The notes under the pieces: generated by a model | Told to the model about the DNA's origin: nothing | Database searches by the model: none | Seen by the model: only the letters and a program-made list of their open reading frames with translations | Program-made: the position numbers and the translations under genes | From: a virus | Strand: one strand, 5' to 3' | DNA length: 22,212 bases | IMG/VR virus record: IMGVR_UViG_3300033388_003442 | Span: 1-22,212 of that record | Part shown: positions 1,485-22,212 of the stretch, in pieces | How positions within the stretch are numbered: position 1 is the first letter of the stretch | Layout of the letters: every line of letters starts with the position of its first letter

Positions 1485-1763
1485 ATGAAAATATTTAAAG
1501 CAAAAGATTATAAGACTCGTGCAGAATTAGAGAACGATGTTCGTAATTCATTTGGTTTAACTCCGACCAAAAAGGAAGCAACAATACAAGGTAAGATTTT
1601 TGACCTTGCAAAGTTATCGTTATCAGCTCGTACTATTTTTTGGGGAATTAGTTGTGAAGTGATACAGCCAAAATCTAAGAAGGAAAAAACAAAAGTAAGC
1701 CGAGGTAAAAAAACAGACTTCGGTATTAATAATCGTGATAATAAAATAAAAAATGCCAAATAA
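1485..1763 (+). CDS. Small hypothetical protein preceding the chaperonin
   Basis: A 92-aa protein. Residues 1-58 look like a compact alpha/beta domain (MKIFKAKDYKTRAELENDV at the start, LSLSARTIFWGISCEV near its end). The C-terminal 30 residues are Lys/Arg-rich and probably disordered (SKKEKTKVSRGKK). Its last 11 bases overlap the start of the chaperonin gene, so translation is probably coupled. The position recalls groES-groEL operons, but I see no GroES features: no GroES-type N-terminus, no mobile loop, and the charged tail is atypical. It could be a chaperonin partner or merely the first gene of the packaging operon. A perfect TATAAT lies 6 nt upstream of the ATG. Family not recognised. 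Confidence 0.7.
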   Translation: MKIFKAKDYKTRAELENDVRNSFGLTPTKKEATIQGKIFDLAKLSLSARTIFWGISCEVIQPKSKKEKTKVSRGKKTDFGINNRDNKIKNAK

Positions 1764-3429
1764 AAGCACAAAAACATTATTGGGGTTTGAAGCTCGTAAG
1801 AAAATTCTTAAAGGTGTAAACAAAGTTTATAATGCAGTGAGACTTACTCTTGGTCCGGCAGGTAAAAACGCTTTGCTTCCAAGAACATTTAATCGTGGAC
1901 CTCGTTCAACTAATGATGGTGTAAATATTTCAGAGAATATTTTATTGAGAGATCCACATGAGAGGATAGCGGCAGATTTTTTTAAAGAAGGTTCAAAAAA
2001 AACTAATGAACTTGTTGGAGACGGTACAACAGGTACAGCAGTAATTGGTGGACATCTCGTAAATAAGATTTTTAATAAATTACCAAACGAAAATATTCCA
2101 GCGTTTTCTCTTGACGGAAAATCTTCAACTGATGTAATGGTAATGCGTCAAGAAATGAAAGAAGCAAAAGAAAAGGTTATTGAAGAAATTAAAAAAGTAG
2201 CGAAACCGATCAAGACACTAGAAGAATTAAAAAAGATAGCTTTGATATCTATTGAAGATAAAAAATCTGCCGATATCGTAGCTGAAATGGTTTGGGAATT
2301 GGGTGTTGATAATTATGTAGATACAGTGGAAGGCTATAAGGGAGAAATTGAAACTGAAACAATTAAAGGTATGCGGTTTCCTGCAAAAGTTGCCGCTCGC
2401 GCTTTTGTTAATAAACCCGAAAGATATGAAATGATAGCGGAAGACGTACCCGTTCTTGTTACAAATTATAAACTGGATAATCCTTTTGAGGTTGTTAGAG
2501 TTTTGGAAAGTGTAAAAGTTCCTAAAATAGCTATTGTAGCGCCGGAGTTTTCACAAAATGTTCTTCAATCAATAATTGCAACGATCAAGAATGGAATATT
2601 TATTTATCCGGTTGCTGTTCCTTCGTTGCGAACAGCGCAACTTGAAGATTTGGCAATCTACACCAAAGCAACTTTGATTGATAAAGATGCCGGTAAAAAA
2701 TTAGATAGTGTAATAAAGGAAGACTTAGGCTTTGCTGAAAGAATTGTTGTGAAAGATACTGACAATAAAGAAGACGCTGTGCTTATTGGCGGAAGAGGCA
2801 CAAAAATAAAAAGAGGACAAGGTACTCTAGTTACTGAACGTTGCGATATGTTGAAAGAGCAAATGAAGGAAACAAAAAACAACGTTGCAAAAGAACAACT
2901 TAAACGAAGAATAGCTAATATGTCATCTGCTGTTGGAGTAATAAGAGTGGGAGCTTCAACTGATGCAGAAAGTCTTTATTTGAAATTAAAAATTGAAGAT
3001 GGTGTATATTCATGTAAGGCGGCACTGGAAGAAGGATACGTAAAAGGAGGTGGATTGTGTTTAAAAGAAATAGCAGAAACAATGGAAGAAAATATTTTGA
3101 CCGATTCCCTTAAAGCTCCTTATGATCAAATTCAAAAGAATGGTGGTAAAGTAAAAATAGGAAAAGATGTAATTGATGCTGCTAAAGTGGTAAGATTAGA
3201 AATAGAACATGGAGTGTCAATTGCTTCTCAACTTATTACAACTGATATTCTTGTAGCTGATGAGGAAGAAATAACAACAGGTGAGGCGAACAGAGCTATT
3301 GCTAAAGCTATAAACAATGGTGTATATTTCAAAGCGAAACACGAAGGAATGTTAAAAGAAAGTGAAATGGAAGCTGAAAAGGACAGAATGGAAATATTTA
3401 ATCAAGCTTTATTTAATGATCTGGATTAA
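1753..3429 (+). CDS. groL: Phage GroEL-like chaperonin (Cpn60)
   Basis: A 558-aa group I chaperonin that should fold proteins in an ATP-driven ring, most likely phage capsid or tail subunits. Equatorial motifs are clear: LTLGPAGK (32-39, nucleotide loop), TNDGV (53-57, aligning with GroEL Asp52), VGDGTTGT (88-95, the GDGTT signature), then near the C-terminus the conserved IEDG Asp (about 416, GroEL Asp398) and EEGYVKGGG (426-434). The apical domain is diverged. The GroEL segment with Tyr199, Tyr203 and Phe204 aligns to VAARAFVNKPE, so only the Phe (218) is kept, and the GFGDRR helix is replaced by PSLRTAQLEDLA. The Gly-Gly-Met tail is absent. No groES is visible nearby. The gene overlaps the 92-aa ORF by 11 bases and is 3 bases from terS. 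Phage-borne GroELs are known, for example in Pseudomonas phages EL and OBP. Confidence 0.92.
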   Translation: MPNKSTKTLLGFEARKKILKGVNKVYNAVRLTLGPAGKNALLPRTFNRGPRSTNDGVNISENILLRDPHERIAADFFKEGSKKTNELVGDGTTGTAVIGGHLVNKIFNKLPNENIPAFSLDGKSSTDVMVMRQEMKEAKEKVIEEIKKVAKPIKTLEELKKIALISIEDKKSADIVAEMVWELGVDNYVDTVEGYKGEIETETIKGMRFPAKVAARAFVNKPERYEMIAEDVPVLVTNYKLDNPFEVVRVLESVKVPKIAIVAPEFSQNVLQSIIATIKNGIFIYPVAVPSLRTAQLEDLAIYTKATLIDKDAGKKLDSVIKEDLGFAERIVVKDTDNKEDAVLIGGRGTKIKRGQGTLVTERCDMLKEQMKETKNNVAKEQLKRRIANMSSAVGVIRVGASTDAESLYLKLKIEDGVYSCKAALEEGYVKGGGLCLKEIAETMEENILTDSLKAPYDQIQKNGGKVKIGKDVIDAAKVVRLEIEHGVSIASQLITTDILVADEEEITTGEANRAIAKAINNGVYFKAKHEGMLKESEMEAEKDRMEIFNQALFNDLD

Positions 3430-9390: not shown

Positions 9391-10353
9391 ATGACTTATA
9401 CAGGAGGACATACAACAGGACTTTCGGCGGATGCTTGCCAAACTGCTATTGATGCAGTTGCATGGGAAACATACGAACGAGAGCAACAACCTGCTTATCT
9501 TTCTGCAAAAGATAGTTTTTTCTTTCAACAGCAAACTGCTGATGAAATGGTCTATGTATGGGATGAAGATTCTAACGTCGGAGCTTTTACAGAGACCGAC
9601 GAACAGGAGATTATTTCAAACGATGATACATTTCTTGGAAATCAGAAAACTGCTCGGCAGAGAAAGTGGACAAAACAAATTCCTGTTTCATTTGAAGCGT
9701 TTAAGACTGATAAAGTTGGAAAACGTGAAAAAATAGGTAGTCAAATTGGCGATCGTGCGCGTCTTACACAAGATAAAGGAGCAATCCTTGATACTTACGG
9801 AGATGCATTTGCCGGTTCAATAAATACGACACCGGACGGCGAAGCATGGGCTTCCAATTCTCACACAACTCTTAAGGGGCATACTGTGGATAATCTTGAA
9901 ACAGGTGTACTGAATGCAGATAACTTATGGACAGTGGTTCAATCTCTTGCCAATATGAAAGCGCAAGACGGCGAAGCTGGTTCATATGTATTTGAGGGAA
10001 TTGTTGTTCCTTTCATTCTTTACAAAACGGTAAAAGAAACAATGGCTTCAACTCTTGTACCATTTTCAGCAGAAAATCAAATTAACTTATTTGATACTGA
10101 TTATGGAACAGTACGAATTGCAGGTTCAATTTTCTTAGGTTCAACTTATAATACAAATTCAAACGCTAATACTTCTTATCATGCGATAGGTAGCGGACAT
10201 ATGGCTACTCGTAGAGTATTAACCAGTTTGGATACTTCTATGATTGAACCAAAATATACAGCTAACGATACTTACGCATATAGAGCTAGATATATGGAAT
10301 CTCACTTCATTGAGAGTTTCCCTGCTTATGTGGGAAGTAATGGAACGGTTTAA
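9391..10353 (+). CDS. Major capsid protein (HK97-fold, predicted)
   Basis: A 320-aa protein in the expected place for the main shell subunit, after scaffold and decoration genes. Residues 85-115 (KTARQRKWTKQIPVSFEAFK) and 148-168 (TPDGEAWASNSHTTLKGHTV) resemble the E-loop/P-domain region and the common DG...W...SHTT motif of HK97-fold capsid proteins. The segment LADMKAQ-like at about 187-193 (SLANMKAQDGEAG) and the following beta strand (FEGIVVPFILYKTVKETM) match the spine-helix and P-domain pattern. Length is normal for the family. There is no obvious prohead-protease gene, so maturation may not need one. The phage chaperonin may serve this protein. Confidence 0.8.
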   Translation: MTYTGGHTTGLSADACQTAIDAVAWETYEREQQPAYLSAKDSFFFQQQTADEMVYVWDEDSNVGAFTETDEQEIISNDDTFLGNQKTARQRKWTKQIPVSFEAFKTDKVGKREKIGSQIGDRARLTQDKGAILDTYGDAFAGSINTTPDGEAWASNSHTTLKGHTVDNLETGVLNADNLWTVVQSLANMKAQDGEAGSYVFEGIVVPFILYKTVKETMASTLVPFSAENQINLFDTDYGTVRIAGSIFLGSTYNTNSNANTSYHAIGSGHMATRRVLTSLDTSMIEPKYTANDTYAYRARYMESHFIESFPAYVGSNGTV

Positions 10354-10380: not shown

Positions 10381-11043
10381 ATGAATATAAAACAAACAAT
10401 CATAGTCGCTGCGATTACAACTCTTGTAGTTGTAGGATTTGCAGCAGTGGTTGGTGGTAATAACCAACCACAGGTACAAGTACAAGAGGCAGTAAACGAA
10501 GCATTAAATAAACTTGGAGCTTCCGGAACACGCTTTCCAAATGGGATAAGTGCTGATACTACTTCTCCCACTTCAGGGCAAGTAAGAGGTACTACTTTTA
10601 CTTCAACGGGAGAAGGTACATTTGCTAGCGCGAGTGTAACTGGCGAAACAGTTGTTGAGGGCTTTACGCAAGGTGGCGGAGTTCTTAATGTTTCAACTAC
10701 TAGTGCGGCATATACGCTTACACAAGCTCAAATGCTTGCAAGCAATGTAATTGAAATTGAAACAGTCGCAGGTGCGGCGGCTCTTACTCTTACTCTTCCT
10801 GCAACAAGTACAATGAGTACTTTAATTGGTACAGCGGGAAATGTACGAGAATGGCTTATTGAAAATAACCATACAGGTGCGGCAACTACAACCACTATGG
10901 TGGCTGGAACAGGTATTGATTTACTCGAGAATGACGGACAAAACGTTGTTATAGGAATAAACAATACGGCAACGCTTAGATGCTGGAGAAAAGAGAATAC
11001 AGATGTTGGTTGTATCGTAAATGAAACGATACCAGCAGACTAG
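10381..11043 (+). CDS. Signal-anchored Thr/Ser-rich structural or surface protein
   Basis: A 220-aa protein beginning with a short basic stretch and a hydrophobic segment (MNIKQTIIVAAITTLVVVGF, about 6-26), typical of a signal peptide or membrane anchor. The rest is beta-rich and low in charge, with Thr/Ser-rich strands (NVSTTSAAYTLTQAQML, ALTLTLPATSTMSTL). The C-terminus holds two cysteines (LRCWRKENTDVGCIVNE), which could form a disulfide if the protein leaves the cytoplasm. It follows the capsid gene at a 27-base gap, in a region that should encode virion parts; a secretion signal there is unusual. It may be a host-surface or virion-displayed adhesin. I recall similar proteins from Parcubacteria-associated sequences but no function. 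Confidence 0.7.
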   Translation: MNIKQTIIVAAITTLVVVGFAAVVGGNNQPQVQVQEAVNEALNKLGASGTRFPNGISADTTSPTSGQVRGTTFTSTGEGTFASASVTGETVVEGFTQGGGVLNVSTTSAAYTLTQAQMLASNVIEIETVAGAAALTLTLPATSTMSTLIGTAGNVREWLIENNHTGAATTTTMVAGTGIDLLENDGQNVVIGINNTATLRCWRKENTDVGCIVNETIPAD

Positions 11044-11044
11044 T

Positions 11045-11087
11045 ATTTCTATCTTGCTTCTTTTTTGGAGGAAGCAAGGTTAGAAAT
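11045..11087 (+). other. Strong intergenic hairpin, possible mRNA processing element
   Basis: Positions 11045-11060 pair with 11071-11087 over 16 base pairs (including one G-U) with a single bulged T and a 10-nt loop (ttttttggag). The arms contain cttgcttc/gaagcaag as a perfect core. There is no U-tract after it, so it is not a standard intrinsic terminator. It may protect the capsid mRNA 3' end or act as a factor-dependent terminator. Confidence 0.55.
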
Positions 11088-11119
11088 ATTAGTTAAATTA
11101 GTAATTTAAAAATTAAAAC

Positions 11120-11662
11120 ATGAGTAAAATACAAAAAATATCTATATTCGCAATTCTTATAAGTGCAATATTTGGACTTGTAATAGTTTGGACGGTGTTT
11201 TTATCACCACTAGAATTAAGCGCGCGCGCTAGTTATGTAACAATAGAAAGAGTTGGTAATACGGCTTCTACAACAGTTGTTTCTATGTCTCCAGGGACCG
11301 CAACAACAACTCTTTCATTTGAAACGAATGAGGTTGATGAAGTTAATCTGTTTATGCAAGTAAATGCTTCTTCTTCAACTTCAACGCTTGCTTGGGAGTA
11401 TGAATTTAGTAATGATAACGTAGATTGGTTTGGTGAAGATGGAATAATTATTACAGCTTCGTTGGGAAGTGAAACAACATATCATTCGTCGTCAACAATT
11501 TCACATAGATGGAATCCGGGTGCAGCAGGAATTGCAAGAAAAACAGTCAAATTACCTACAATTTCTTCAAGATATTCTCGTATTGTTTTTACTGTTCCTG
11601 ACGGAGTAGGAAATTTAACAATGTGGGCAAATGCTTCATTAAAACGTAACGCGGGTAATTAA
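11120..11662 (+). CDS. Second signal-anchored beta-rich protein
   Basis: A 180-aa protein with an N-terminal basic stretch and a long hydrophobic helix (MSKIQKISIFAILISAIFGL and onward, about 8-32). It resembles an uncleaved membrane anchor or signal peptide. The remaining 145 residues are Ser/Thr-rich beta strands (GTATTTLSFETNEVDEVNLF, SRYSRIVFTVPDGVGNLTMW) with a WEYEFSNDNVDWFGED segment. The fold suggests a jelly-roll or immunoglobulin-like domain; none is certain. It is separated from the preceding signal-anchored gene by a strong hairpin and lies one base before the next ATG. As with the neighbour, an export signal in a head-tail gene cluster is unexpected. Confidence 0.7.
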   Translation: MSKIQKISIFAILISAIFGLVIVWTVFLSPLELSARASYVTIERVGNTASTTVVSMSPGTATTTLSFETNEVDEVNLFMQVNASSSTSTLAWEYEFSNDNVDWFGEDGIIITASLGSETTYHSSSTISHRWNPGAAGIARKTVKLPTISSRYSRIVFTVPDGVGNLTMWANASLKRNAGN

Positions 11663-11663
11663 A

Positions 11664-11837
11664 ATGTTTACAATCTCACAAACAAAAGAACATTTAACTT
11701 CAATGATCCATTCAGGAACGTTGAATCAAGTGCGTAATTTTGAGGCGGCGTGTGAGAGAGCGGCAATGACTATGCTACTTAAATGTCATCCACTTGAAAC
11801 AATACGAACAGTTGGATTATCTTCCACAAGCAAATAG
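11664..11837 (+). pseudogene. N-terminal fragment of a split connector-like gene
   Basis: A 57-aa frame starting one base after the previous stop, with the usual start context (aattaaaATG). The peptide contains GTLNQVRNFEAACERAAMTM and CHPLETIRT, which I recognise as the N-terminus of a common phage protein of the head-tail region. In the relatives I remember, this continues for about 25 residues (a Tyr-rich DDVYNYALP-type segment) and then into a DIxPQxNR segment in the same chain. Here the frame stops at 11835-11837, while the continuation is in another frame from about 11794. I therefore read this as the front part of a gene broken by a net deletion of roughly 70 bases with frame change. 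A true split gene or an assembly error are the alternatives. Confidence 0.55.
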
Positions 11838-12756
11838 AACAAATTTGGATCAAGGAAGGAGAATCTTTGCGGAGTCTTTTGATTTGCGTAAAGCATTGGA
11901 TAATAGGACAGTATCTATTGAATCAAGTGAAGGAACAAAACTTATTCGTATTAATTGGGATGTTCGTGCGGCAAAAACACTTCACAATATGGATACTTAT
12001 GATGGGAATGGTACTTGGAGCGCTGTTGGAACAACTTCGGGAATAGAAACAGATACAATATATAAATATTCAGGTGGTGGTTCAGTTAGATTTGATTTGG
12101 CGGCTTCTGGGGACGGTATTCAGTGTACTGACATGTCTGCAATAGATTTGGAAGATGAAGACGAGTTAGCAGATGCTGTAATTCCTATATATTTTGGTTC
12201 TGTCACTCATTTAACAAGTATTTCTGGAATATGGGGGAATGATTTGACTACTAATTACTGGACTGGAGTTGCGCAAACAACACAAGCAGACGGTACAGCA
12301 TTTAGAGCCGGCTGGAACATAATTAAATTACCGTGGAGTACCGCTACAGAAACAGGAACAGTTGACTCGACAAAAGTTGATTCATTTAAACTTACTGTTG
12401 CCACGACTGGAGCAATAGCAGATATTCGTATAGATAATATTCAATTTGCTATTGGATATCCTTTTGATATTAAATATTATTCAAAATATTTATTTCAAAA
12501 TTCATCAGGTACTTTTATTTCCAAACCAACATCAGATGATGATAATGTAAATTTAGATAATGATGGATTTCAGATATATTTACTGGAACTTCTGATTGCA
12601 ATAGCACATCAACTAGAGGGGACAGATAGTGTATTTGACATTCAATTTGCTAAAAATGAGTTAGCAACACTTTATCAGGCATACAATGGAGAACATTCAA
12701 GTCAAACAAAGAAAGCAACTGTACATTATGGAGGATTACCTCGTTTTCAACGTTAA
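11794..12756 (+). CDS. C-terminal part of the split connector-like protein, with carbohydrate-binding-like domain
   Basis: A 320-codon frame with no ATG near its beginning; the first possible start is TTG at 11794, and the next Met is about residue 67. It overlaps the 57-aa fragment by 44 bases in a different frame. The sequence begins with a family-like segment (LDYLPQANRTNLDQ), then TVSIESSEGTKLIRINW. A beta-sandwich domain of about 170 residues follows (around 58-225: LHNMDTYDGNGTW, GGGSVRFDLAASGDG, NDLTTNYWTGVAQTTQ, IADIRIDNIQ), resembling galactose-binding or CBM-like jelly rolls. The last 90 residues are helical. It probably forms part of the neck or tail adaptor. The coding quality stays high to the end, so the break is recent, artefactual or tolerated. 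Confidence 0.7.
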   Translation: MKQYEQLDYLPQANRTNLDQGRRIFAESFDLRKALDNRTVSIESSEGTKLIRINWDVRAAKTLHNMDTYDGNGTWSAVGTTSGIETDTIYKYSGGGSVRFDLAASGDGIQCTDMSAIDLEDEDELADAVIPIYFGSVTHLTSISGIWGNDLTTNYWTGVAQTTQADGTAFRAGWNIIKLPWSTATETGTVDSTKVDSFKLTVATTGAIADIRIDNIQFAIGYPFDIKYYSKYLFQNSSGTFISKPTSDDDNVNLDNDGFQIYLLELLIAIAHQLEGTDSVFDIQFAKNELATLYQAYNGEHSSQTKKATVHYGGLPRFQR

Positions 12757-12758
12757 TT

Positions 12759-14606
12759 ATGGAAAGATATAAACTTAGAAAAGAAATAAAAGGATATGTA
12801 ACAAACGAAGAAGCTACTTCTGAAAAAGCTGAACCTCATATGATTGCCGGTTCACAGAATGTGCTTATTGATCCTCGTTTTGGTAAATTTGGTAATCGTG
12901 GTGGTTATTCACGGTTAGGCGCAGCTAATATGGCACTGACAGCTGTTAGACAAGCTCCTGTGTGGAATAACTCCACAGGTGGAGAATTACCGCTTAGAAT
13001 GTATGACGATGAACTAGAGGTATATTTGAGCGATGTAGGAGGGCAGACGATTGATGCTTGGACGAGAGTAAAAAGCAGTCTTGATACAACAGCAATACCG
13101 AGATTTGCAACTTGGTGGGACGGAACAGAAGATATTGATGTTCTTTTATTTGTTATAAACGATGATAATATTTATGAATGGGGAGGAGGAGTATTTACAG
13201 TAAAAACAGTTGATGATGCGACACATATTACTAAAAAAGGAGATAATACCTGGGCGGAAGATAGAATTTATACAAGTGCTAATAAAACGCTTGTTTGTGT
13301 CCGAACTGGTACAGAATATACATATTCAGCGGGAGAAAGTGGAACACAACTTACTGTTACGAGTTCAACAGGACTTACAGCTGGAGATATTTTAATGCAA
13401 AAGATCGTAACAAATACAGATAAACCAGCGACTAATAGGGATAACAATTACATTATGATGTTTGAGAATCAGATTTTTGTTGGTTCAGATACTGACAATG
13501 AAGTTTTAATATCGGCAAATGATGATTATACTGATTATTCTTATTCATCGCCTCGTGTAGCAGGAGAGGGGGGGATACTTACTTTAGATGGTCCGACTAA
13601 AGGGTTTGGTGTATTATCCCGAATACCTATTATTTTTTCTGGTAATTCGGGCATTTTTACCGCACAATTTGAAGAAATTGCAGTTTCTACAACTCTTGCG
13701 GAAACTTTAAAAGTTAGAAAACTTAAAACTGGTGTTAATCAAGGAGCATTTAATCAAGAAACTATTGTTCCAATAGGTGATTCTCTTATATATTTAACTA
13801 ATGAATCGGCTTTGAGAATGTTACAAACGGTGGAAACAGCGGATCAACCACAATTAAAAGCTCTTTCTAACCCGATAAAACCCGATTTTGACAATGAAAC
13901 TTGGACAAATGCTTGTGCTATATGGCACAGAAACAGATATTATCTTTCTTCTTCGGTAAATTCTAAAATATATATTCTTGATTATGTTGAAACAGCAGAC
14001 GGAAGAATTAAAAGATTTTGGCAACCGCCACAGATTTTACCTGTTAGGTGTTGGTCTGTTATAGATAGTGTTCTTTATGGACATTCTAATGTAGTGCCGG
14101 AAACTTATTTATTGTTTACCGGAGCTTCTGATGGAGTTTATAGTGGAATACCAACAGAAGATAAGCTCCCTATCCAAGCGATAGCTAAATTAGCTTATAG
14201 AACCTTTGGTGATCGTGCGAATTTAAAGAATTTTGATGAATTTTATGTTGAAGGTAATATTTCACCATCAACTGACAATTTAAAATTGACTTTACGATAT
14301 GATTTTGGCGGAGCTACTCAAGAAGTGGAGAAAATCATTAACGGAACAGACAATGATATTATTTATGAATCACTTGAAGCAACATCTCTTGGACAACAAC
14401 CACTTGGTTCTAATCCTCTTGGTGGGGCGAATGAAGAAGCGCCGGAGTTAGCGCGTTTTAGAGTTGTTTTTGGAATGCCAAAAGAAGATTTTCATGAAAT
14501 ACAAGAAACTTATGAAACAAATGAAGCTGATAAATCTTGGGAAATTATCGCAACAGGTCCCAATGTGAAAACATCCGCAAGACGTGATATAATAATTAAA
14601 AAATAG
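12759..14606 (+). CDS. Tail hub or nozzle-like beta-propeller protein
   Basis: A 615-aa soluble, beta-rich protein. Near the N-terminus, NVLIDPRFGKFGNRGGYSRL (about 35-54) has the form seen in podoviral tail-stabilisation or nozzle proteins, where a strand segment precedes repeated propeller blades. Repeated aromatic and Asp-rich strands follow (ATWWDGTEDIDVLLFVINDD, NNYIMMFENQIFVGSDTDNE, SNSKIYILD-like strand at about 405). P22 gp10 and T7 gp12 play this role at the tail tip of short-tailed phages, and the gene order here is P22-like; the assignment is by analogy. The gene begins 2 bases after the preceding stop and ends 4 bases before the fibre gene. No signal peptide or enzymatic motif is visible. 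Confidence 0.6.
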   Translation: MERYKLRKEIKGYVTNEEATSEKAEPHMIAGSQNVLIDPRFGKFGNRGGYSRLGAANMALTAVRQAPVWNNSTGGELPLRMYDDELEVYLSDVGGQTIDAWTRVKSSLDTTAIPRFATWWDGTEDIDVLLFVINDDNIYEWGGGVFTVKTVDDATHITKKGDNTWAEDRIYTSANKTLVCVRTGTEYTYSAGESGTQLTVTSSTGLTAGDILMQKIVTNTDKPATNRDNNYIMMFENQIFVGSDTDNEVLISANDDYTDYSYSSPRVAGEGGILTLDGPTKGFGVLSRIPIIFSGNSGIFTAQFEEIAVSTTLAETLKVRKLKTGVNQGAFNQETIVPIGDSLIYLTNESALRMLQTVETADQPQLKALSNPIKPDFDNETWTNACAIWHRNRYYLSSSVNSKIYILDYVETADGRIKRFWQPPQILPVRCWSVIDSVLYGHSNVVPETYLLFTGASDGVYSGIPTEDKLPIQAIAKLAYRTFGDRANLKNFDEFYVEGNISPSTDNLKLTLRYDFGGATQEVEKIINGTDNDIIYESLEATSLGQQPLGSNPLGGANEEAPELARFRVVFGMPKEDFHEIQETYETNEADKSWEIIATGPNVKTSARRDIIIKK

Positions 14607-14610
14607 CACT

Positions 14611-16485
14611 ATGAAATATATAGTAACATTCATCGCAACTTTAGCCCTCGTCCTCTCTATGGGAGCTATAAGTATTATTACAAATACAGTTGATAATATT
14701 GATTGGAGTCCAACTATAATAGAAAAAACTTTAATACAAGAAATTGAAGTAGGCGCGGATACTCAAAAGTTTTTAGGTGGTTTTCCATATACTCTCGCAG
14801 GTAGCGGAATAACTTCTTCGGTAAGTTCTATCACTTTAACATCTTTTACTTTACCTCAAACAGATTATGAAATATTGGACGGTGATCTGTCAGATACTTT
14901 TTATATAACAATAGAACCCGGAAATACATCACGTCAAGAGTTTGTGTCTTGTACTACGGTTACCCAGAATGCAGGTGATACAGCCACTTTTTCAGGTTGT
15001 TCTCGTGGACTTCTTCCTATTTCACCTTATACAGCTTCCAGTACTTATAGATTTTCTCACGCAGGAGGAACAAAACTTATATTCTCTAATCCACCGAATT
15101 TATACGATCAAGCCGTATTTAAAGCTAATGATGAGACTATAACAGGTATTCACACTTATACTTCAACTGCACAACCTCGCTATGATGCCACACCAATCCT
15201 CACCGGCAATGATTTATATTTTGCGTCAGTGGCTTATGTTAATAATTCAGCTAATCAAGGTGCGGCAACTTCTACAGAAACAAATGCGGGTATAGCAGAA
15301 CTAGCGACACTCGCTGAACAGGCAAGCGGAACACCGTGGGGAGCAAATGACCCACACGTTATGCAGTCTGAAAATGCAACGTCTTCTCCCAATGGCTCCG
15401 GTTCTGCTTATTATGCTTTAATCCTTAACTCTGCGGGGAAAATAGCACAAAGTGCGTTGAATTTAGCTGAAGATATCATTTTCACTGATAATGTGACAGT
15501 AACAGGAACAAGCACATTAGCGACTACTACAATAAATGGAGTTACTCTAAATCCTGTTTTTGGCGGTGATGGGTCAGATGGTGTTCTTACTATAACATCA
15601 GGAACAACAACAATTGACCTCGGAAATGCTTCAATTGTAACAAAAAATTATTCATCTATAAGTATAACAGGAACAGGAGTTCTCGCTTTTTCAAATGCTT
15701 CTACAACTGGAACAATTATTTATTTAAAATCACAAGGAAATGTAACAATAACAACATCTGCAAATCCTGCTATTGATCTTAGGTTACTTGGTGCTATGTA
15801 TGGAGTGGGAGGTGCAGCTAGTTATGGAAATGGGAGTAATGGAACAGGGGCGGCAAATGTCTTAGATAGTTTAATTCATTATGGATTAGGTGGTGGTGTA
15901 GTAAATGGAGACGGCGGAGTAGGTGGGGTAGCTTTTACCTTACCGAAATTCTATACACAAAAGAGTGATGATATCGCTATAAGAAAAAGTATTATTTTAG
16001 CTCCAGGTTCAGGAGGTGGTGGTGGAGAAGGTGGTTCAGGTGCCGATGGTGGTGTTGGAGGTCGTGGGGGTCGAGGAGCTGGAAGTTTACTTTTTGAAAT
16101 TGGTGGGGCATATAACTGTACTGGCGTATTTAATGCTTCTGGGGAAGCCGGAGTTGTCGGTTTAGCCCCGACTGGAGATCCTAGCAGTGGAGATAGAGGC
16201 GGTGGCGGCGGCGGCGGCGGCGGCGGTGGCGGAATTATTGTTATTTTATATAACATACTGACAGCAGATTCAGGTACTTATACTGTAACATCTGGTTCAG
16301 GCGGCGTTGGTGGAGCTGTCGGTGTCAACTTTAGCAACATTTCAGGCGGCGGTGGTGGTGGCGGTGCACAATTAACCGCTGGTGAAAATGGAAGAAACAG
16401 TGATACTCCAAATAATTACCACGGCGGTGGTGGTGGAGCTGGACGTTCGGGTGTTTCAGTAGTTTCTCTTAATACCGTTTTTTAA
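14611..16485 (+). CDS. Signal-anchored tail fibre/adhesin with polyglycine C-terminal domain
   Basis: A 624-aa protein. Residues 3-24 form a hydrophobic signal or anchor segment (YIVTFIATLALVLSMGAISI). Residues about 45-190 are Ser/Thr-rich beta modules ending near NPPNLYDQAVFKANDETITG. Residues 210-300 resemble a fibre module (NAGIAELATLAEQASGT, NSAGKIAQSALNL). From about 391 the protein is glycine-rich, with a run of 12 Gly at 530-541, 7 Gly at 579-585 and several GGxGG stretches. Polyglycine-II sandwich domains of this composition form receptor-binding tips in some phage adhesins (for example S16/T2 gp38), so a host-binding role is likely. The modules remind me of Parcubacteria-associated phage fibres. 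The gene starts 4 bases after the previous stop. Confidence 0.72.
   Translation: MKYIVTFIATLALVLSMGAISIITNTVDNIDWSPTIIEKTLIQEIEVGADTQKFLGGFPYTLAGSGITSSVSSITLTSFTLPQTDYEILDGDLSDTFYITIEPGNTSRQEFVSCTTVTQNAGDTATFSGCSRGLLPISPYTASSTYRFSHAGGTKLIFSNPPNLYDQAVFKANDETITGIHTYTSTAQPRYDATPILTGNDLYFASVAYVNNSANQGAATSTETNAGIAELATLAEQASGTPWGANDPHVMQSENATSSPNGSGSAYYALILNSAGKIAQSALNLAEDIIFTDNVTVTGTSTLATTTINGVTLNPVFGGDGSDGVLTITSGTTTIDLGNASIVTKNYSSISITGTGVLAFSNASTTGTIIYLKSQGNVTITTSANPAIDLRLLGAMYGVGGAASYGNGSNGTGAANVLDSLIHYGLGGGVVNGDGGVGGVAFTLPKFYTQKSDDIAIRKSIILAPGSGGGGGEGGSGADGGVGGRGGRGAGSLLFEIGGAYNCTGVFNASGEAGVVGLAPTGDPSSGDRGGGGGGGGGGGGIIVILYNILTADSGTYTVTSGSGGVGGAVGVNFSNISGGGGGGGAQLTAGENGRNSDTPNNYHGGGGGAGRSGVSVVSLNTVF
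16198..16233 (+). repeat. GGC trinucleotide repeat coding polyglycine
   Basis: Twelve consecutive glycine codons, of which 16204-16224 are seven GGC in a row, inside an AT-rich genome. Slippage would change the number of glycines without shifting the frame, giving length variation in the adhesin domain. Confidence 0.7.
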
Positions 16486-16490
16486 TTATT

Positions 16491-16601
16491 ATGCCAACAA
16501 CAGCAACCGGACAAAATAAAACAACTAATTCAACAGGTGGCGATACTGGACACAACAATATGCAACCATTTATTGTCTTGAATTATATTATTAAATACTA
16601 A
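16491..16601 (+). CDS. 36-aa protein resembling only the C-terminus of tail-collar proteins
   Basis: An ATG at 16491 (context aattattATG, A at -3) opens a 36-aa frame ending at TAA 16599-16601, one base before the next gene. The second half, GGDTGHNNMQPFIVLNYIIK, closely matches the conserved end of phage tail-collar domain proteins, which typically finish with a GGxQPHNNMQPF-LNY-I pattern. The first half is polar and Thr/Gln/Asn-rich (TTATGQNKTTNSTGG), as in the linker before that motif. The upstream fibre gene ends 6 bases earlier in another frame, so this is not its readthrough. It may be a remnant left by fibre-domain replacement, or a separately made subunit that completes a trimeric fibre tip. 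Confidence 0.6.
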   Translation: MPTTATGQNKTTNSTGGDTGHNNMQPFIVLNYIIKY

Positions 16602-16602
16602 T

Positions 16603-18762
16603 ATGCCATATCCTTTTAACATAGACCCAAAAGAAAAAAGAATGAGTATGCTTACAGATAAGCCTGCCGGCACTGATACTGTGCCACCTAAAGAGGAAAT
16701 TACTCCTCAAGGCTTTGAGTCTATTCCAATGGAAGAAGAAAAGAAAACTCCTCTTTCTTTTTCTGAAGAACAAGCAGTAAAGGTTTTAGATGAAACAGAA
16801 AAAAAGTTAGATGAATTAAAACCATCAGAACTTGTTGAGGACTTAAAAGAACCAGTTGAAGAGCCAAAAGAAGACAAAAATAAAGCTCTTGATGGGACAG
16901 TGGGGACACCGATGTCTCTTGAAAGTGCAATGGAGGTTTATGGTAATAATTTTGCGGGACTTCACCAAACAGCAAGTGGTGAATGGATAGCAGACGAAAC
17001 AGCACTCTCACGAGCGGGAGTAACTGGAATTACAGCACCTAATCCAACGTTCACAAAAGCAAAAGAAGAATATGATACAGCAAAAAGCAATCTTCTTAAT
17101 TTAGATGTTTCCAAAGACCCTGAATTACAAGGTATTATCTCTAGTATTACTTCTCAATGGGATAATCGTATTTCTGAAATGAAGCAAATAAACAAAGGCA
17201 GAGAGGCTTCTTTAACAAAACGGGGTATTCGTCTTGGCGGTCGTTATACTGGAGAAATATTTGGAGGAATAATCGCTTCGGAAGAACGCGCGGGAATACA
17301 GAAGATCGCTAATATTGAAGCACAAAAACAATCAGCGATAACTCAAGCTACTGCTGCTTATAAATCTCAAAAATGGGATGAATATTATGATTTAGTTAGT
17401 TTAGCTGAAAAGGAATACAATAGGGAGATAGAGGCAGTGAATGAACTGAATAAGTTAGCGGTTGAACAATCTAAATTATTGCAAGAAAAAAATAATGAGG
17501 AAATATCTAAAAGTGCTGTAAGTGATGGAGTTTATAATGCAATAATAGGGGGTGCGGAAGATGTGCAAAGTATATACAAAAACTTGCGTGATCTTGGAAT
17601 TGAAACAACTCCTGACGAAATTGAAAAAATGATGATTTCATTTATTCCTGAAAAGTCAAAAGACACAACAAAGAACACTTATGAATTTGGTAAAAATGAT
17701 GTTGGTAAACTTATTTCTGTTGGTTTAACTGGTGAAGATATACAAGCAACACAGGATGTCTTTAATCAATATGGTCTCTACGGTAAAGTTTCTGAGCTAG
17801 GAAACAAATCTTTAGTTGAATTTTTACCATCTGAACAATTAAAAGTAATAGAAGATATTTTATTTCCTCCTGTAAAATTATCAGATAAAGATGTAAAAAA
17901 AGGAGATTTGAGCTATGAACAAAGTATTTTAATTCCAAGAATTGGTAAACAAATTTATGGAACAAGAATTAGTGATAAAGAAAGCGAAAGAGTTGAAGGA
18001 TTTGTAACGCGTGGTATGGCTCTTGGTAAAAATCAATATGATATTATTGATGATGTATTAGGATATCAAGTTGAAAGAAACAAAGGACTTGCTGATGGAT
18101 TAAGAAATACTTTATTGGCAACTGTTGGTGCTGAAGGTCTTTTTGGATATGACATGCTTGGATTGGCGCGACTTATAAATATGGGTGAAGATATGCCTGC
18201 TGTTAGAAAAGTAGAAAATGCAAAAATGTTGGAAGCTAGAGAAATAATAGGAAAAGAAAATTTTGTTGCAGAAGCGGATATTATTTATGTAATGGATAAA
18301 GTAGATGAAATAAATAGCCTGCTCGGTGAAGGCTGGATTGATGATGTTGGTGCTTTTGAGGGTACCTTTTCTGGTTGGATATCTAAAAAGTTTGGTTGGG
18401 GACAAGCGGCAAAAATAAAAGCAAAAATAACATCAATTACTTCTGGTTTTGTTAATAAAAGAGCAGGTTCTGCCATTACAGATACGGAATGGGAGCGTAT
18501 TATTGCTCCAAATGTTCCAGCCTTGAATGATAGTGCTGATACTATTAAAATGAAACTTCAAGAACTTATAGATGATCCTATAACCAGATATAATTCCGAA
18601 AGAAAACAGGTTTCTTTACCTGAACTTACACGAGAACAAATTAGTACGCCTGAATTAAGAATAAAACTATATTCAGGAAATAAACAACAACAAGCAGATA
18701 ACTTTCTTGATTCTTTTGATGAAGATTATGATGAAAGTAGTTGGGGTAATATAAATATATAA
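16603..18762 (+). CDS. Probable internal virion (ejection) protein 1
   Basis: A 719-aa mainly helical protein. The first 100 residues are Glu/Lys/Pro-rich and disordered-looking. Residues about 145-310 are long helices with coiled-coil character (YDTAKSNLLNLDVSKD, EAQKQSAITQATAAYKSQKW, EYNREIEAVNELNKLA). Near the C-terminus, ITSGFVNKRAGSAITDTEWE (about 614-633) followed by PALNDSADTIKMKLQELI resembles a motif I recall from large uncharacterised virion proteins in which a helix pair precedes a Gly/Ala-Thr/Ser-x-E turn. Position after the tail genes, length and helicity fit P22 gp7/gp20/gp16-like or T7 core proteins, which leave the capsid to form a conduit across the envelope. No lysozyme or transglycosylase motif is visible. 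The start is one base after the previous stop. Confidence 0.55.
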   Translation: MPYPFNIDPKEKRMSMLTDKPAGTDTVPPKEEITPQGFESIPMEEEKKTPLSFSEEQAVKVLDETEKKLDELKPSELVEDLKEPVEEPKEDKNKALDGTVGTPMSLESAMEVYGNNFAGLHQTASGEWIADETALSRAGVTGITAPNPTFTKAKEEYDTAKSNLLNLDVSKDPELQGIISSITSQWDNRISEMKQINKGREASLTKRGIRLGGRYTGEIFGGIIASEERAGIQKIANIEAQKQSAITQATAAYKSQKWDEYYDLVSLAEKEYNREIEAVNELNKLAVEQSKLLQEKNNEEISKSAVSDGVYNAIIGGAEDVQSIYKNLRDLGIETTPDEIEKMMISFIPEKSKDTTKNTYEFGKNDVGKLISVGLTGEDIQATQDVFNQYGLYGKVSELGNKSLVEFLPSEQLKVIEDILFPPVKLSDKDVKKGDLSYEQSILIPRIGKQIYGTRISDKESERVEGFVTRGMALGKNQYDIIDDVLGYQVERNKGLADGLRNTLLATVGAEGLFGYDMLGLARLINMGEDMPAVRKVENAKMLEAREIIGKENFVAEADIIYVMDKVDEINSLLGEGWIDDVGAFEGTFSGWISKKFGWGQAAKIKAKITSITSGFVNKRAGSAITDTEWERIIAPNVPALNDSADTIKMKLQELIDDPITRYNSERKQVSLPELTREQISTPELRIKLYSGNKQQQADNFLDSFDEDYDESSWGNINI

Positions 18763-18764
18763 TT

Positions 18765-20933
18765 ATGGCAACATTAAGAGAAGCAATTGAATATTCAAGA
18801 AATAATCCTCAAGATCCAAAATCTAAAGAACTTTATAATATGATTAAAGGGGGACAAATGGATCAAAGAGCTGTACAAGAAGGAGTTGATTTGAGTGGAG
18901 CGGGTAGAATGATGACAGCTCCTCAAATTGCTATTGGTCAACATCCTGCAATTCGTGGATTTCAACCTTCACAAAAAAAGGGGGAAACTTGGGGAGAGAT
19001 TGCTAAAGAAACAGGTAGAGATATTCAAGAGACAATAGCTGGTTTTTATAGAGAAACCGGAAAAGCCGGAGAGGCAATAGTTAAAGAATTTGGTGAAAAA
19101 AAACCGTTAGCAGAAAGAGTTGTTGGTGCCGGAGCTGAATTTTATAAAGGAATTGGGCTAGGAGTTGAAGAAATAGTTATCGGTGCTGGTAAAACTCTTG
19201 TTTCAGAAGAAACTGAAAAAGCTGTTGGTGAAAAAATTAGAGCAATTGGAGAATCTGTTGGTGAAACTGAAATCGCGCAAGATCTTATGTTGAAGTATAA
19301 AGAATTAGATCCAGCTACAAAAGAACAAGTAGATAATATTTTAGGATATACTGAAGGTTTGGCTGAAATTGGTACTGCTGGATTAGCTTCAAAGGTTTCT
19401 AAACAAATATTTAAAGGTGTAGAAAAAACAATAGAAGTTGGTTTTAAAGCGTTACCTGAAGGAAAAGTATTAAAAGAAGGAATTGAGGCAGTTGGGGAAG
19501 CTGTTACTAAAGTACAAAGATATCCATCTGAAGTCATTGGAAAAACAAAAAATTATCTTTCACGAAAAAATGTTAAAGAGAATTTTGGTTCTTCTATTGA
19601 TAGGATTGCTATTTCCGCAAAAGAGGTAGATAAACCTAATCCTTTGTTTCTTTATGATAAAACATTAAAATCAAAACCAACAAAAAATCCTCTTTCTCTT
19701 TATGATGAATTTTATAAACAAGAACAAGCGTTTAAAACAGATATAAAACAAGATACAGCTATTGGTCTTGTTGGAGAAAGAATAGGGGGAGCTTATGATA
19801 ATGTAATTACAGCTAGACGTGCCGTTGGAAAAACAATGGAGAAAGAATTAGCTAAAATAGGCGATATAAAAACTAATGTCTCTACCGGTTTTTCTAATTT
19901 TGAAGAAGAATTATTAAAAAATGGAGTAAGATTTGATTCAAAAACGAGTAAATTGTTGGTTGACAAAACCTCTAAAGTAGCCGGTACTGATAAAAAACTA
20001 CTTGAAACATATATAAAAGAATTAAACAAACTTAATGCTGAACCTTCTGTTGCTGAATTAGATGCTTTTTTATCAAGAGTACCACAGGAAATTGATATCT
20101 ATAAAAGTAAAAATAATATAGTGAAAGTAACTAATGGAGAAAGAATTATTAAACAGAATTTACGACAATTAAGAGAACAAATATCGCCAAAAGTAAATCC
20201 TCTTTTTGAAAACTATTATAAAGCTCGTACTGATTATTCGGAATTATCTAATTTCTTAGATGAAGGAGCCTCTTTTTTAGGTAAAAAGACACAAACAGGG
20301 GATTTTGCTAAAGATGCTTCTTTAGCAAAAAGCTCTGTACAATCTATTCTTAATCAAGGTAAAAAAGATTGGTTACTTTCTCTTGAAGATCTAACTGGTT
20401 ATCATGCTCTTGATGAATCAATGTTAGCATTACAGGCGATGAAAGATGCAGGTAACTTTAGAGGACAATCTTTGCTTGATCTTATGACACAAGAAACAGC
20501 TAAAATTCCAACAACGGTAGGACAAGTAGTTGAAAAAGGAAAAGAAGTTGTTGGAAAGAAATTTGTCGGAGAACCTTATGAACAAACAAGACGTGTTATT
20601 ATGGAAAGAATGGGGCAAAAGATTGAAACGATACCAACACAATTCAAAGCAGGAATGTCAATTCAAAGTGTTATGGATGTAAAATCAAGAACTCCTGATT
20701 TTGCTAATGCTGTTGATTACGCAGTAAGACAATTAGATTCTCTTACTTCACAAACTGTTTTAAAAAAAGGTCAACTGGATCTTGATTTAGTAGAGAAAAT
20801 TGAAAATGTATTAGAAGTATTAAAAAGTGGAAAAGCTAGTTTAATTGAAGAAAAAGAGGCATTAAAGCAAGCTTCTGAAATAATTAAAGAATTAAATATA
20901 CCGACAAAAATTCAGGTTAAAAGTGTTAAATGA
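18765..20933 (+). CDS. Probable internal virion (ejection) protein 2
   Basis: A 722-aa helical protein starting 2 bases after the previous stop (context ataattATG). Residues 70-260 are Gly/Ala/Glu-rich amphipathic helices (ETGRDIQETIAGFYRETGKA, FYKGIGLGVEEIVIGAGKTL, EGLAEIGTAGLASKVSKQIF), the sort that could insert in membranes after release. Residues 290-520 are a Lys-rich helical bundle, and the C-terminus has coiled-coil potential (IEEKEALKQASEIIKELN). With its neighbour it forms a pair of large helical proteins after the tail genes, as in podovirus ejection modules. No enzymatic motif is seen. It ends with TGA, direct evidence against TGA being a sense codon here. Alternative roles such as a tail-associated structural protein remain possible. 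Confidence 0.55.
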   Translation: MATLREAIEYSRNNPQDPKSKELYNMIKGGQMDQRAVQEGVDLSGAGRMMTAPQIAIGQHPAIRGFQPSQKKGETWGEIAKETGRDIQETIAGFYRETGKAGEAIVKEFGEKKPLAERVVGAGAEFYKGIGLGVEEIVIGAGKTLVSEETEKAVGEKIRAIGESVGETEIAQDLMLKYKELDPATKEQVDNILGYTEGLAEIGTAGLASKVSKQIFKGVEKTIEVGFKALPEGKVLKEGIEAVGEAVTKVQRYPSEVIGKTKNYLSRKNVKENFGSSIDRIAISAKEVDKPNPLFLYDKTLKSKPTKNPLSLYDEFYKQEQAFKTDIKQDTAIGLVGERIGGAYDNVITARRAVGKTMEKELAKIGDIKTNVSTGFSNFEEELLKNGVRFDSKTSKLLVDKTSKVAGTDKKLLETYIKELNKLNAEPSVAELDAFLSRVPQEIDIYKSKNNIVKVTNGERIIKQNLRQLREQISPKVNPLFENYYKARTDYSELSNFLDEGASFLGKKTQTGDFAKDASLAKSSVQSILNQGKKDWLLSLEDLTGYHALDESMLALQAMKDAGNFRGQSLLDLMTQETAKIPTTVGQVVEKGKEVVGKKFVGEPYEQTRRVIMERMGQKIETIPTQFKAGMSIQSVMDVKSRTPDFANAVDYAVRQLDSLTSQTVLKKGQLDLDLVEKIENVLEVLKSGKASLIEEKEALKQASEIIKELNIPTKIQVKSVK

Positions 20934-21047
20934 TTAACGTGGGCTTAAAAGATAAACAAAAACAGATACAAAAAATAAAAAGATAGAGATAGGAATAGCC
21001 CACCAACCAAAAAGAAAAATTAATAACAAAAAAATGATAATTTCCAT
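20934..21047 (-). CDS. Possible 37-aa hydrophobic protein on the opposite strand
   Basis: On the minus strand an ATG (21045-21047) opens a 37-aa frame, beginning MEIIIFLLLIFLFGWWAIP and ending LLSPR, with its stop directly abutting the stop of the 18765-20933 gene. Nearly the whole protein is hydrophobic, enough for one or two membrane passes with a WW-Ala-Ile-Pro break. A perfect TATAAT (minus strand, 21055-21060) lies 7 nt before the ATG, and TTGTTG is 17 nt further upstream. It fills almost all of the gap between two virion genes. A-rich plus-strand DNA favours Phe/Leu frames on the other strand, so chance is a real alternative. If made, it could be a holin/antiholin-like or exclusion peptide. 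Confidence 0.35.
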   Translation of the reverse strand: MEIIIFLLLIFLFGWWAIPISIFLFFVSVFVYLLSPR

Positions 21048-21054
21048 TATTTAA

Positions 21055-21083
21055 ATTATACCATGTCAAGCAAATTACAACAA
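21055..21083 (-). promoter_or_regulatory. Candidate minus-strand promoter for the 37-aa ORF
   Basis: TATAAT on the minus strand at 21055-21060, with TTGTTG at 21078-21083 after a 17-nt spacer. The -35 matches only 3 of 6. The position would give a nearly leaderless message, as at 1450-1478 and 5229-5255. Confidence 0.3.
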
Positions 21084-21905
21084 GCCTTAAAAAAAATAAA
21101 CCAAAACCCCGATAATGTGCTTTTTGAGCGTATGGGTGGGCTTTTTGGACTTCTTGGTAAAGATTTTGCTAAAGAATTGGATACGGTTATCAAAGATATT
21201 CAAACAGAACTGGATAAGATGAAAAAGGAGACACTTACTTCCACTGATAAAGAACTTATAGAAAAAAAGAAAAGAGAACTGACAGAATTACAAAATAAAG
21301 CACAAGCTCTCTATTCTGAATTTACTGAGAAAACCACTCAACTTATTTTAGATGTAAATGATAAAACAAAAAGAGCCATTACAAGCGTACAGCAAACATC
21401 GGAAACAGTAGAGAATAATTTAGAGAAAACTTCAACACAAATACACGGTGAAATAATATCAGTTCTCAATAAAGCTAAAACAAACATAGACAAATATCAA
21501 GGTCCAAAAGGAGACGAGGGAGATAAAGGAAAAGACGGAAGTTCTGATAAACCGGACGAAATAGTAAAGAAAATAAATAAAGCTGACAAGAAAATATCAA
21601 TAGCTTCAATTTTTGGACTTTCTCAAGAGATCGTTAGTATTAAACAAGCTATTCGTAGAAAAGCTGGAGGTGGCGGAGGAGGGGGTATGGGGAATTTTAT
21701 CCATCAATCTTTCAATGGAAATGGAAGCATAACATCATTCACGCTTTCAAATGGTGTAGCAAGTGAGGGGAGAGCTATTTTTGTACGTTATCAAGGTCAA
21801 TTACAAGTAGATACTACACATTATTCTGTTTCGGGTAAAACTCTTTCTTTAACTTTTACGCCTAAGAATAACTCGTTTATTGATGTAACATATGTAAGAA
21901 CATGA
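21063..21905 (+). CDS. Coiled-coil/collagen-like tail fibre protein
   Basis: A 280-aa fibre with a clear modular plan. Residues about 35-145 are a long charged coiled coil (LDTVIKDIQTELDKMKKE, KKKRELTELQNKAQALYSE). Residues 147-159 are a short collagen-like stretch (GPKGDEGDKGKDG, four G-x-y triplets). Then follow a helical linker, a run of seven Gly at 202-208, and a C-terminal beta domain (211-280; SFTLSNGVASEGRAIFVRYQ, THYSVSGKTLSLTFTP) of a type widespread at the tips of phage fibres and used for trimerisation or receptor contact. There is no signal peptide, unlike the fibre genes on either side. The stop overlaps the next start (ATGA), so the two are co-translated. The start has A at -3 and no Shine-Dalgarno. 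Confidence 0.75.
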   Translation: MSSKLQQALKKINQNPDNVLFERMGGLFGLLGKDFAKELDTVIKDIQTELDKMKKETLTSTDKELIEKKKRELTELQNKAQALYSEFTEKTTQLILDVNDKTKRAITSVQQTSETVENNLEKTSTQIHGEIISVLNKAKTNIDKYQGPKGDEGDKGKDGSSDKPDEIVKKINKADKKISIASIFGLSQEIVSIKQAIRRKAGGGGGGGMGNFIHQSFNGNGSITSFTLSNGVASEGRAIFVRYQGQLQVDTTHYSVSGKTLSLTFTPKNNSFIDVTYVRT

Positions 21906-22212
21906 ATATAATAATCACAATTTTAATATCAGCTATTGTTTCAACCGGAGCTTTATTTATTCAAACACCAGATATGAATGTGGGAGTTGCTCCCAGAATA
22001 TTCACTTCTTCACAAGTAGGAACTTCTCCTACTGCGGGTGATGTGTTGCAGTCTGATGGTTTTACTTCTGAATGGGTAGCAACAACAACGTTAGGTATTG
22101 TGGGCGGCGGCTCTACCGGCGGCTCTACTGTTCTTACAACTAAAGGCGATATCCTCACGCATGACGGCGCAACCTCAACCAGACTAGCAGTAGGAACAGA
22201 CGGACAAGTGAT
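21902..22212 (+). CDS. Signal-anchored tail fibre-like protein, cut by the window end
   Basis: A frame starting at 21902 (ATGA overlap with the preceding fibre gene) and still open at the window edge, about 103 codons seen. Residues 1-17 are a hydrophobic signal or anchor (MNIIITILISAIVSTGALF). The next part has fibre-like repeats: SQVGTSPTAGDVLQSDGFT, EWVATTTLGIVGGGSTGG, then TTKGDILTHDGATSTRLAVG. The last resembles the KGDLLVHDG...L-VG-DGQVL unit common in tail fibres, and the VLQSxG...WVATTTLGI phrase is one I associate with Parcubacteria-derived sequences. It would be the fourth signal-bearing protein in this structural block. Its function, probably host attachment, is inferred. Confidence 0.65.
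   Translation, partial: MNIIITILISAIVSTGALFIQTPDMNVGVAPRIFTSSQVGTSPTAGDVLQSDGFTSEWVATTTLGIVGGGSTGGSTVLTTKGDILTHDGATSTRLAVGTDGQV

Follow-up and report, generated by a model that had tools for sequence, protein, structure and literature searches.

Predicted export signals on the putative surface appendages of podovirus-like phages whose core proteins lack them

The particles of tailed phages are generally held to be put together in the cytoplasm, and one would not expect export signals on their fibres. Here we describe four proteins from a 22,212-base virus record (IMG/VR IMGVR_UViG_3300033388_003442, positions 1 to 22,212; this whole stretch is "the window") that begin with a hydrophobic segment resembling a signal peptide or a signal anchor. 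The proteins start at 10381, 11120, 14611, and 21902, and we refer to them as slots A, B, C, and D. They appear to be virion appendages, judging from a predicted fold and from gene positions. Among related phages, the N-terminal segment is found in 90 of 92 orthologues (A, 35/35; B, 25/25; C, 21/23; D, 9/9) and in just 1 of 260 core proteins from the same loci (terminase, portal, scaffold, decoration, capsid, adaptor, nozzle, internal, and collagen-like proteins). We think the chances are a little better than even that, in this podovirus-like clade, the appendages are substrates of the host's Sec system that mature outside the cytoplasmic membrane, with the core of the virion being built inside.

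All four open reading frames are on the + strand; each is found at the start given in a preliminary description of this DNA and begins with a hydrophobic segment of 17–23 residues. Slot A (10381..11043, 220 amino acids) begins with MNIKQ[TIIVAAITTLVVVGFAAVVGG], and its segment is at residues 6–26 (10396..10458). Slot B (11120..11662, 180 amino acids) begins with MSKIQK[ISIFAILISAIFGLVIVWTVFLS]; its segment is at residues 7–29 (11138..11206), and there is a possible signal-peptidase site, ARA/S, at residues 35–37. Slot C (14611..16485, 624 amino acids) begins with MK[YIVTFIATLALVLSMGAISIIT], with the segment at residues 3–24 (14617..14682) and a transmembrane (TM) helix at residues 2–27 of the AlphaFold2 model; the putative anchor precedes a conserved beta domain with a pair of cysteines, and the C-terminus is glycine-rich. 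Slot D (21902..22212) begins with MN[IIITILISAIVSTGALFI], and its segment is at residues 3–20 (21908..21961). It is the start of a putative tail-fibre protein, with a weak match to a PHROG tail-fibre family (E = 5.8e-4), and full-length relatives reach 1804 amino acids. The highest Kyte-Doolittle means over 17 residues are 2.74 for slot A, 2.95 for B, 2.41 for C, and 2.46 for D. The preliminary description treated 10381–22212 as one feature, which does not hold, as the intervening genes lack such segments and the protein at 21902 is ended by the end of the contig.

Could the start codons be wrong, or the hydrophobicity be due to chance? An in-frame ATG at 21974 would remove the segment of slot D, and the four starts lack Shine-Dalgarno sites. 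But the start at 21902 overlaps the stop of the preceding gene (which ends at 21905), and the start at 14611 is 4 bases past the nozzle-like gene. Because of this spacing, and because the orthologues retain the segments, we consider the starts to be credible, rather than lying downstream of the segments. Also, the orthologues of slot D have full signal peptides. The comparative data refute this explanation, and we give it virtually no weight.

We found the relatives by searching viral contigs with the capsid protein and with slot C, which yielded 56 loci on about 45 contigs, with capsid proteins that are 30–75% identical to the window's. A scan of genome contigs added three more loci, with capsid identity down to 28%. 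Orthologues were assigned by position and homology, and segments were called with one hydropathy threshold for all genes. A direct scan of the viral contigs with slot B gave no match, and its orthologues were obtained by synteny. Most relatives retain the gene order, and a few (L026, L043–L046) have other genes inserted between slot B and the adaptor gene. Two contigs carry two differing versions of a gene, one per end: the major capsid protein in G785 (at 248 and 41340) and slot A in G786 (at 1215 and 44740). These could be strain mixtures, chimeras, or real duplications.

The contrast between appendage and core proteins corresponds to a Fisher P of about 1e-80, which is not a true probability, since the rows are related. 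The segments of slot A have a pairwise identity of just 19%, as compared to 15% expected from composition, so it is the hydrophobicity itself that is conserved and not the sequence. The preliminary description suggested checking whether homologues keep the segments and regarded homologues without them as evidence against its idea. Two of the 23 slot-C orthologues (L052 and L060) do lack the segment, and neither has an upstream start that could add one; the other 21, and every orthologue of the other three slots, retain it.

The segments have several features of Sec signals. All four window proteins and 90 of 92 orthologues have a short N-region and a hydrophobic region (h-region) of about 15 residues or more. 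If we pool the four slots, then the flank on the N-terminal side is the more positively charged one in 63 proteins, the reverse is true in 7, and 20 are tied, in keeping with the positive-inside rule for membrane-inserted segments; the window's slot D has no lysine or arginine N-terminal of its segment. AxA-type cleavage sites, for which we looked 3–9 residues past the h-region, can be made out by eye in most slot-D fibres, in several slot-B proteins, and in slot C of L039, and are not evident in slots A, C, and D of the window. Most slot-D proteins seem to have classical Sec signal peptides with an AxA site (for instance, TPAFA/V in L007 and TAYA/L in L009, as read by eye). In slot B, sites of the AxA or VxA type can be read from the sequences of L032 (VSA/NP), L044 (VRA/NP), L046 (VQA/NP), L052, and L025. 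L039 differs at slot C, where its protein has a classical signal peptide (LSAFA/AD) and the orthologues have an anchor. None of the four window proteins has a lipobox cysteine at the expected place, and AVGC is found only in slot C of L015 and L017. Overall, slot D and the further fibre genes look mostly like they have cleavable Sec signal peptides, and slots A, B, and C look mostly like they have signal anchors. The topology bias, the putative cleavage sites, and the retention in homologues support the original suggestion that these N-termini are export signals or membrane anchors.

Alternatively, the hydrophobic N-termini might be docking or assembly peptides that are buried in the capsid or the tail and are never translocated. 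In phage fibres, it is usually the N-terminus that serves for docking. Also, an LG[AGS] motif, or more broadly [LFVI]G[AGS], is found 5–30 residues past the segment (as in LGASGTRFPNG or LGADTVLP), and it is strongly enriched in slots A and C and weakly in slot B. It lies within 35 residues of the segment in 33/35 slot-A proteins (9.7 in shuffles) and is present in 17/21 slot-C proteins (5.1 in shuffles). In the window's slot A, the motif is LGASGTRFPNG, after the putative anchor (10513..10545, + strand). This shared motif could be a docking site or a processing site. The charge bias, the AxA sites, and the lack of sequence conservation in the segment count against a buried peptide, as do the C-terminal TM segments with basic tails in two fibres and the switch to a classical signal peptide that is seen in L039 (slot C) and in the majority of slot-D proteins. 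Because of the charge bias, the AxA sites, the swaps to signal peptides, and these C-terminal segments, we favour export, and we consider a docking peptide to be improbable.

The AlphaFold2 model of slot A (a monomer) has a TM helix at residues 3–25, a second helix at 33–45, and a confident beta domain at 97–220. Using Foldseek, the model matched the capsid spike of Pseudomonas phage Pa223 in PDB (9ny6_C; E = 3.8e-4, probability 1.00). It also matched an Acinetobacter phage tailspike (probability 1.00) and 173 viral models in BFVD (E ≤ 0.001), which are mostly unnamed phage proteins and include some tail fibres. The likeness to the Pa223 spike is in the C-terminal domain, ahead of which slot A carries its TM segment, and a profile sequence search of PDB with slot A found no relation. 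Given this fold, and given that slot A lies right after the capsid gene, it is most likely a capsid spike. This predicted fold and position make virion appendages a better reading than decoys.

For slot C, the structural model had no confident fold match in PDB. Across 20 sequences, its cysteine pair is either C/C (13 sequences) or F/V (7 sequences) and is never mixed, which suggests that the two cysteines form a disulphide. Searches of slots A–C against PHROGs and Pfam gave only scattered matches for single members, such as one slot-C protein to a tail collar fibre family. When we compared the slot-C domain (the L060 version), the slot-B proteins of L007 and L005, and the window's portal to deposited phages with tblastn, we found no relatives. 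In Patescibacteria genomes, the slot-C domain had weak, short matches in two genomes only.

In complete or long contigs, nearly all of the fibre genes downstream of slot D have signal peptides as well: there are seven in a row in G782, and there are two or three behind slot D in G781, G783, G786, G789, G790, and G800. One fibre of G784 combines a signal peptide with a TM segment near its C-terminus, which is followed by RSRRK. In G787, the start of the slot-D fibre, with a signal peptide, is at one end of the contig, and a Peptidase_S74 domain (E = 3.7e-13) and a TM segment with KKK are at the other end; we read these two pieces as one gene that spans the ends of a circular genome. Read in this way, the fibre resembles known tail fibres that end in the S74 (endosialidase-chaperone) domain, but it has a signal peptide as well as a TM segment past S74, and the other clade records that we searched lack S74.

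It may be that these proteins are exported and membrane-anchored without being part of the virion. They might be displayed late in infection on the surface of the cell, where they could draw in new hosts as adhesins, shield the cell from superinfection, or act as decoys. Such a role in display alone is the main rival to our proposal. It accounts for the export signals on the four slots and on the downstream fibres, and it does not need a route back to the particle. Also, the chromosomes of the likely hosts are rich in exported fibre-like proteins with S74 domains (see below). On the other hand, slot A directly follows the capsid gene and has the predicted fold of a capsid spike, slots C and D occupy the positions of podovirus tail appendages, and in most genomes we did not recognise a receptor-binding protein without a signal that could substitute for them. 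So we infer that the four slots join the virion, and we consider display alone to be unlikely.

Another possibility is a tailed virus that leaves with some of the host membrane, as an envelope or a membrane patch, in which the appendages would act as type II envelope spikes. Several of the surface proteins appear to have signal anchors with the N-terminus inside and the C-terminus outside (N-in/C-out), which resembles the topology of envelope spikes. However, we did not recognise any genes of membrane viruses; TerL is ordinary and the gene order is that of tailed phages. Relatives also encode lysis-type genes (SLT, Amidase_2), and the signals of slot D look cleavable. We consider an envelope to be very improbable.

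We propose instead that the appendages and the core mature on opposite sides of the cytoplasmic membrane. Slots A (the putative capsid spike), B (the small protein next to it), and C (the tail protein) would mostly enter the membrane, held by signal anchors in the N-in/C-out orientation. The tail fibres, which are encoded by slot D and the fibre genes that follow it, would mostly be exported by means of signal peptides that can be cleaved off. The proteins of the shell, portal, adaptor, and nozzle, together with the internal and collagen-like proteins, would remain in the cytoplasm, where the core would assemble. The appendages would fold and trimerise outside the membrane, and they would come together with the core either at the membrane or when the cell lyses. 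There is a parallel in filamentous phages, whose coat proteins are virion proteins with signal peptides and are inserted into the membrane before assembly, but these phages belong to a different class of viruses and their whole coat assembles in the membrane.

Predicted export of the appendages is well supported: the distribution and conservation of the signals, the topology bias, and the types of cleavage sites are supported by the sequences, and the spike fold of slot A is supported by its model. From these, we infer that the proteins are actually translocated by the host's Sec system, belong to the virion, and join the core at exit.

Several observations weigh against this proposal. First, it does not account for how an exported protein would reach a particle in the cytoplasm. 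Second, the segments and cleavage sites were judged by hydropathy and by eye. Third, L028, L030, and L049 lack slots A and B and have a small protein without an N-terminal signal instead (in some other relatives, a small protein of this kind replaces slot B). Fourth, neither slot C nor the downstream fibres of G799 (L052) have signals, although slots A and B of this phage retain theirs, and L060 lacks a signal on slot C yet has one on the slot-D fibre. These exceptions imply that the segment, or export, is dispensable for slot C and its fold, and that the signals do not disappear together as one unit; because of L060, we rejected the idea that the signals of slots C and D vary together in an all-or-none manner. 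Finally, Peptidase_S74 was found in just 1 of the 26 clade records and genomes that we searched (G787), so we also rejected it as a clade-wide feature.

In a broader version of this proposal, an entire lineage of tailed phages would divide the building of its particle between two compartments. The core would form in the cytoplasm, and Sec would export every receptor-binding appendage (capsid spikes as well as fibres), which would stay at the outer surface of the host membrane until joined to the departing core. We put this forward only tentatively.

The host is probably a member of the Patescibacteria. We found relatives of the capsid protein in contigs from two metagenome-assembled genomes (MAGs), of a Microgenomatus and a Kaiserbacteria. 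The relative at 28% identity is in one contig of a Methylococcaceae MAG; this contig looks misbinned, because the L060/L095 stretches have Shine-Dalgarno motifs before just 1 of 27 genes. Across the clade, Shine-Dalgarno-like motifs precede 41 of 768 phage genes and are rarer than at random positions (93), and in the window they precede 0 of 20 gene starts. The corresponding counts are 4/49 for chromosomal genes of Patescibacteria (5 at random positions), 27/50 for proteobacterial genes, and 36/60 for T7 and P22; the comparison was confined to these groups, and a lack of Shine-Dalgarno sites is also a trait of others, such as Bacteroidota. The frequency of T at position -1 is also similar (0.54 in the phages and 0.49 in Patescibacteria). 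These observations agree with the suggestion in the preliminary description that the host is a tiny bacterium. It had also raised the possibility that a host carrying a prophage uses the proteins on its own surface, which we disfavour. We searched 380 Patescibacteria genomes and 399 proteobacterial genomes for prophages and found only contigs that we already knew about, with a capsid gene in just one of the Patescibacteria genomes, so common prophages are unlikely.

Peptidase_S74 is present in 92 of the 380 Patescibacteria genomes, usually in very long open reading frames. We examined 20 of these proteins, in full or in part: 10 have a TM segment or a signal peptide at the start, 5 have a cytoplasmic DNA-binding-type domain followed by a TM segment and then S74, and 5 are incomplete or unclear. 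This suggests that exported fibre-like proteins are common in the likely hosts. In Proteobacteria, about 3–4 of about 18 S74 reading frames with a visible start have a signal (starts and strands were judged by eye and some are uncertain). The exported S74 proteins of Patescibacteria resemble the phage fibres in their signal peptide or TM segment, their long repeats, and the S74 domain at their C-terminus; the homology seen with slot-D fibres is in the S74 domain. Some of the chromosomal proteins (L133, L142, L143, L146, and L151) are giants. They start with MerR-type helix-turn-helix (HTH) or integrase SAM-like domains, which are followed by a TM segment, by long repeats, and by Peptidase_S74 at the C-terminal end. 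These are possibly membrane-held regulators with a fibre outside of the cell, a layout that we take to resemble that of eukaryotic MYRF.

The four slots lie in a gene order like that of T7 and P22, whose late genes also run from the portal, scaffold, and capsid to the adaptor, nozzle, internal proteins, and fibres. Unlike in this clade, none of the virion proteins of T7 or P22, including the T7 gp17 fibre and the P22 gp9 spike, has an N-terminal export signal. The first half of the window encodes GroEL (1753), the small (3433) and large (3809) subunits of terminase, a portal-like protein (5262), two small genes, a scaffold-like protein (8075), a decoration-like protein (8839), and the major capsid protein (9391). 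After slots A and B come the adaptor-like (11664/11794) and nozzle-like (12759) genes, slot C, two large internal-type proteins (16603 and 18765), the collagen-like protein (21063), and slot D. Only GroEL, the terminase subunits (TerL has a PHROG match with E = 3.6e-19), and, weakly, the capsid protein match known families, and the other names are based on position and comparison. We did not recognise a tape measure, sheath, or tube protein in the window, where most tail proteins match no family.

Three of these genes (all on the + strand) served as controls without export signals or bear on how the fibres might attach. The major capsid protein (9391..10353), which was our query for relatives, matches Pfam's Phage_capsid_4 with E = 1.7e-4, which is under the curated cut-off; an N-terminal TM segment was found in 0 of 41 members. 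The alignment of the nozzle-like protein (12759..14606), which is named by position, has a TM segment in 0 of 28. The collagen-like tail-fibre protein (21063..21905) matches PHROG tail-fibre and collagen families in up to 7 of 11 members and has a TM segment in 0 of 11. Its gene immediately precedes slot D wherever both are visible. Our guess is that this protein, which is never exported, could be a docking partner in the cytoplasm. The idea that it has a docking domain like that of T7 gp17 was not confirmed in PDB.

A few other features of these genomes are worth describing. The window's adaptor gene (11664–12756) is split across two frames (11664–11837 and 11794–12756), and relatives have a single reading frame (2472–3635 in L003 and 2318–3463 in L007). 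This implies a frameshift near 11815–11835, which could be genuine or a sequencing error. The phage-encoded GroEL (1753–3429; PHROG chaperonin, E = 1.5e-73) lies upstream of the packaging genes, as it also does in G781, G784, G785, G787, L051, L052, and L058, which are relatives whose upstream region is visible. A LAGLIDADG-like open reading frame interrupts the decoration gene, and HNH-like reading frames adjoin decoration or capsid genes, in a set of relatives made up of L005 (1791–2225), L006 (6206–6640), L028, L030, L042, and L007. These are likely mobile introns or endonucleases.

In the open-licence papers that we searched, we found no earlier report of tailed phages whose appendages are seemingly routed through the membrane. 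Those that we read on phages of Patescibacteria do not mention export signals in virion proteins. A survey of hypermutated targets (PMC8144416) described N-terminal TM segments or signal peptides where the targets were cellular, and tail proteins where they were viral.

If Sec signals are restricted to the surface appendages, and are retained even as the sequences of the segments diverge to near background, this would mean that there is a route of assembly or display that has not been described for this class of viruses. Such a rule would offer a way to read the virus encounters of Patescibacteria, which are difficult both to grow in culture and to modify genetically. Also, the combination of signal peptides in fibre genes with the lack of Shine-Dalgarno sites may help to assign uncultured phages to such hosts.

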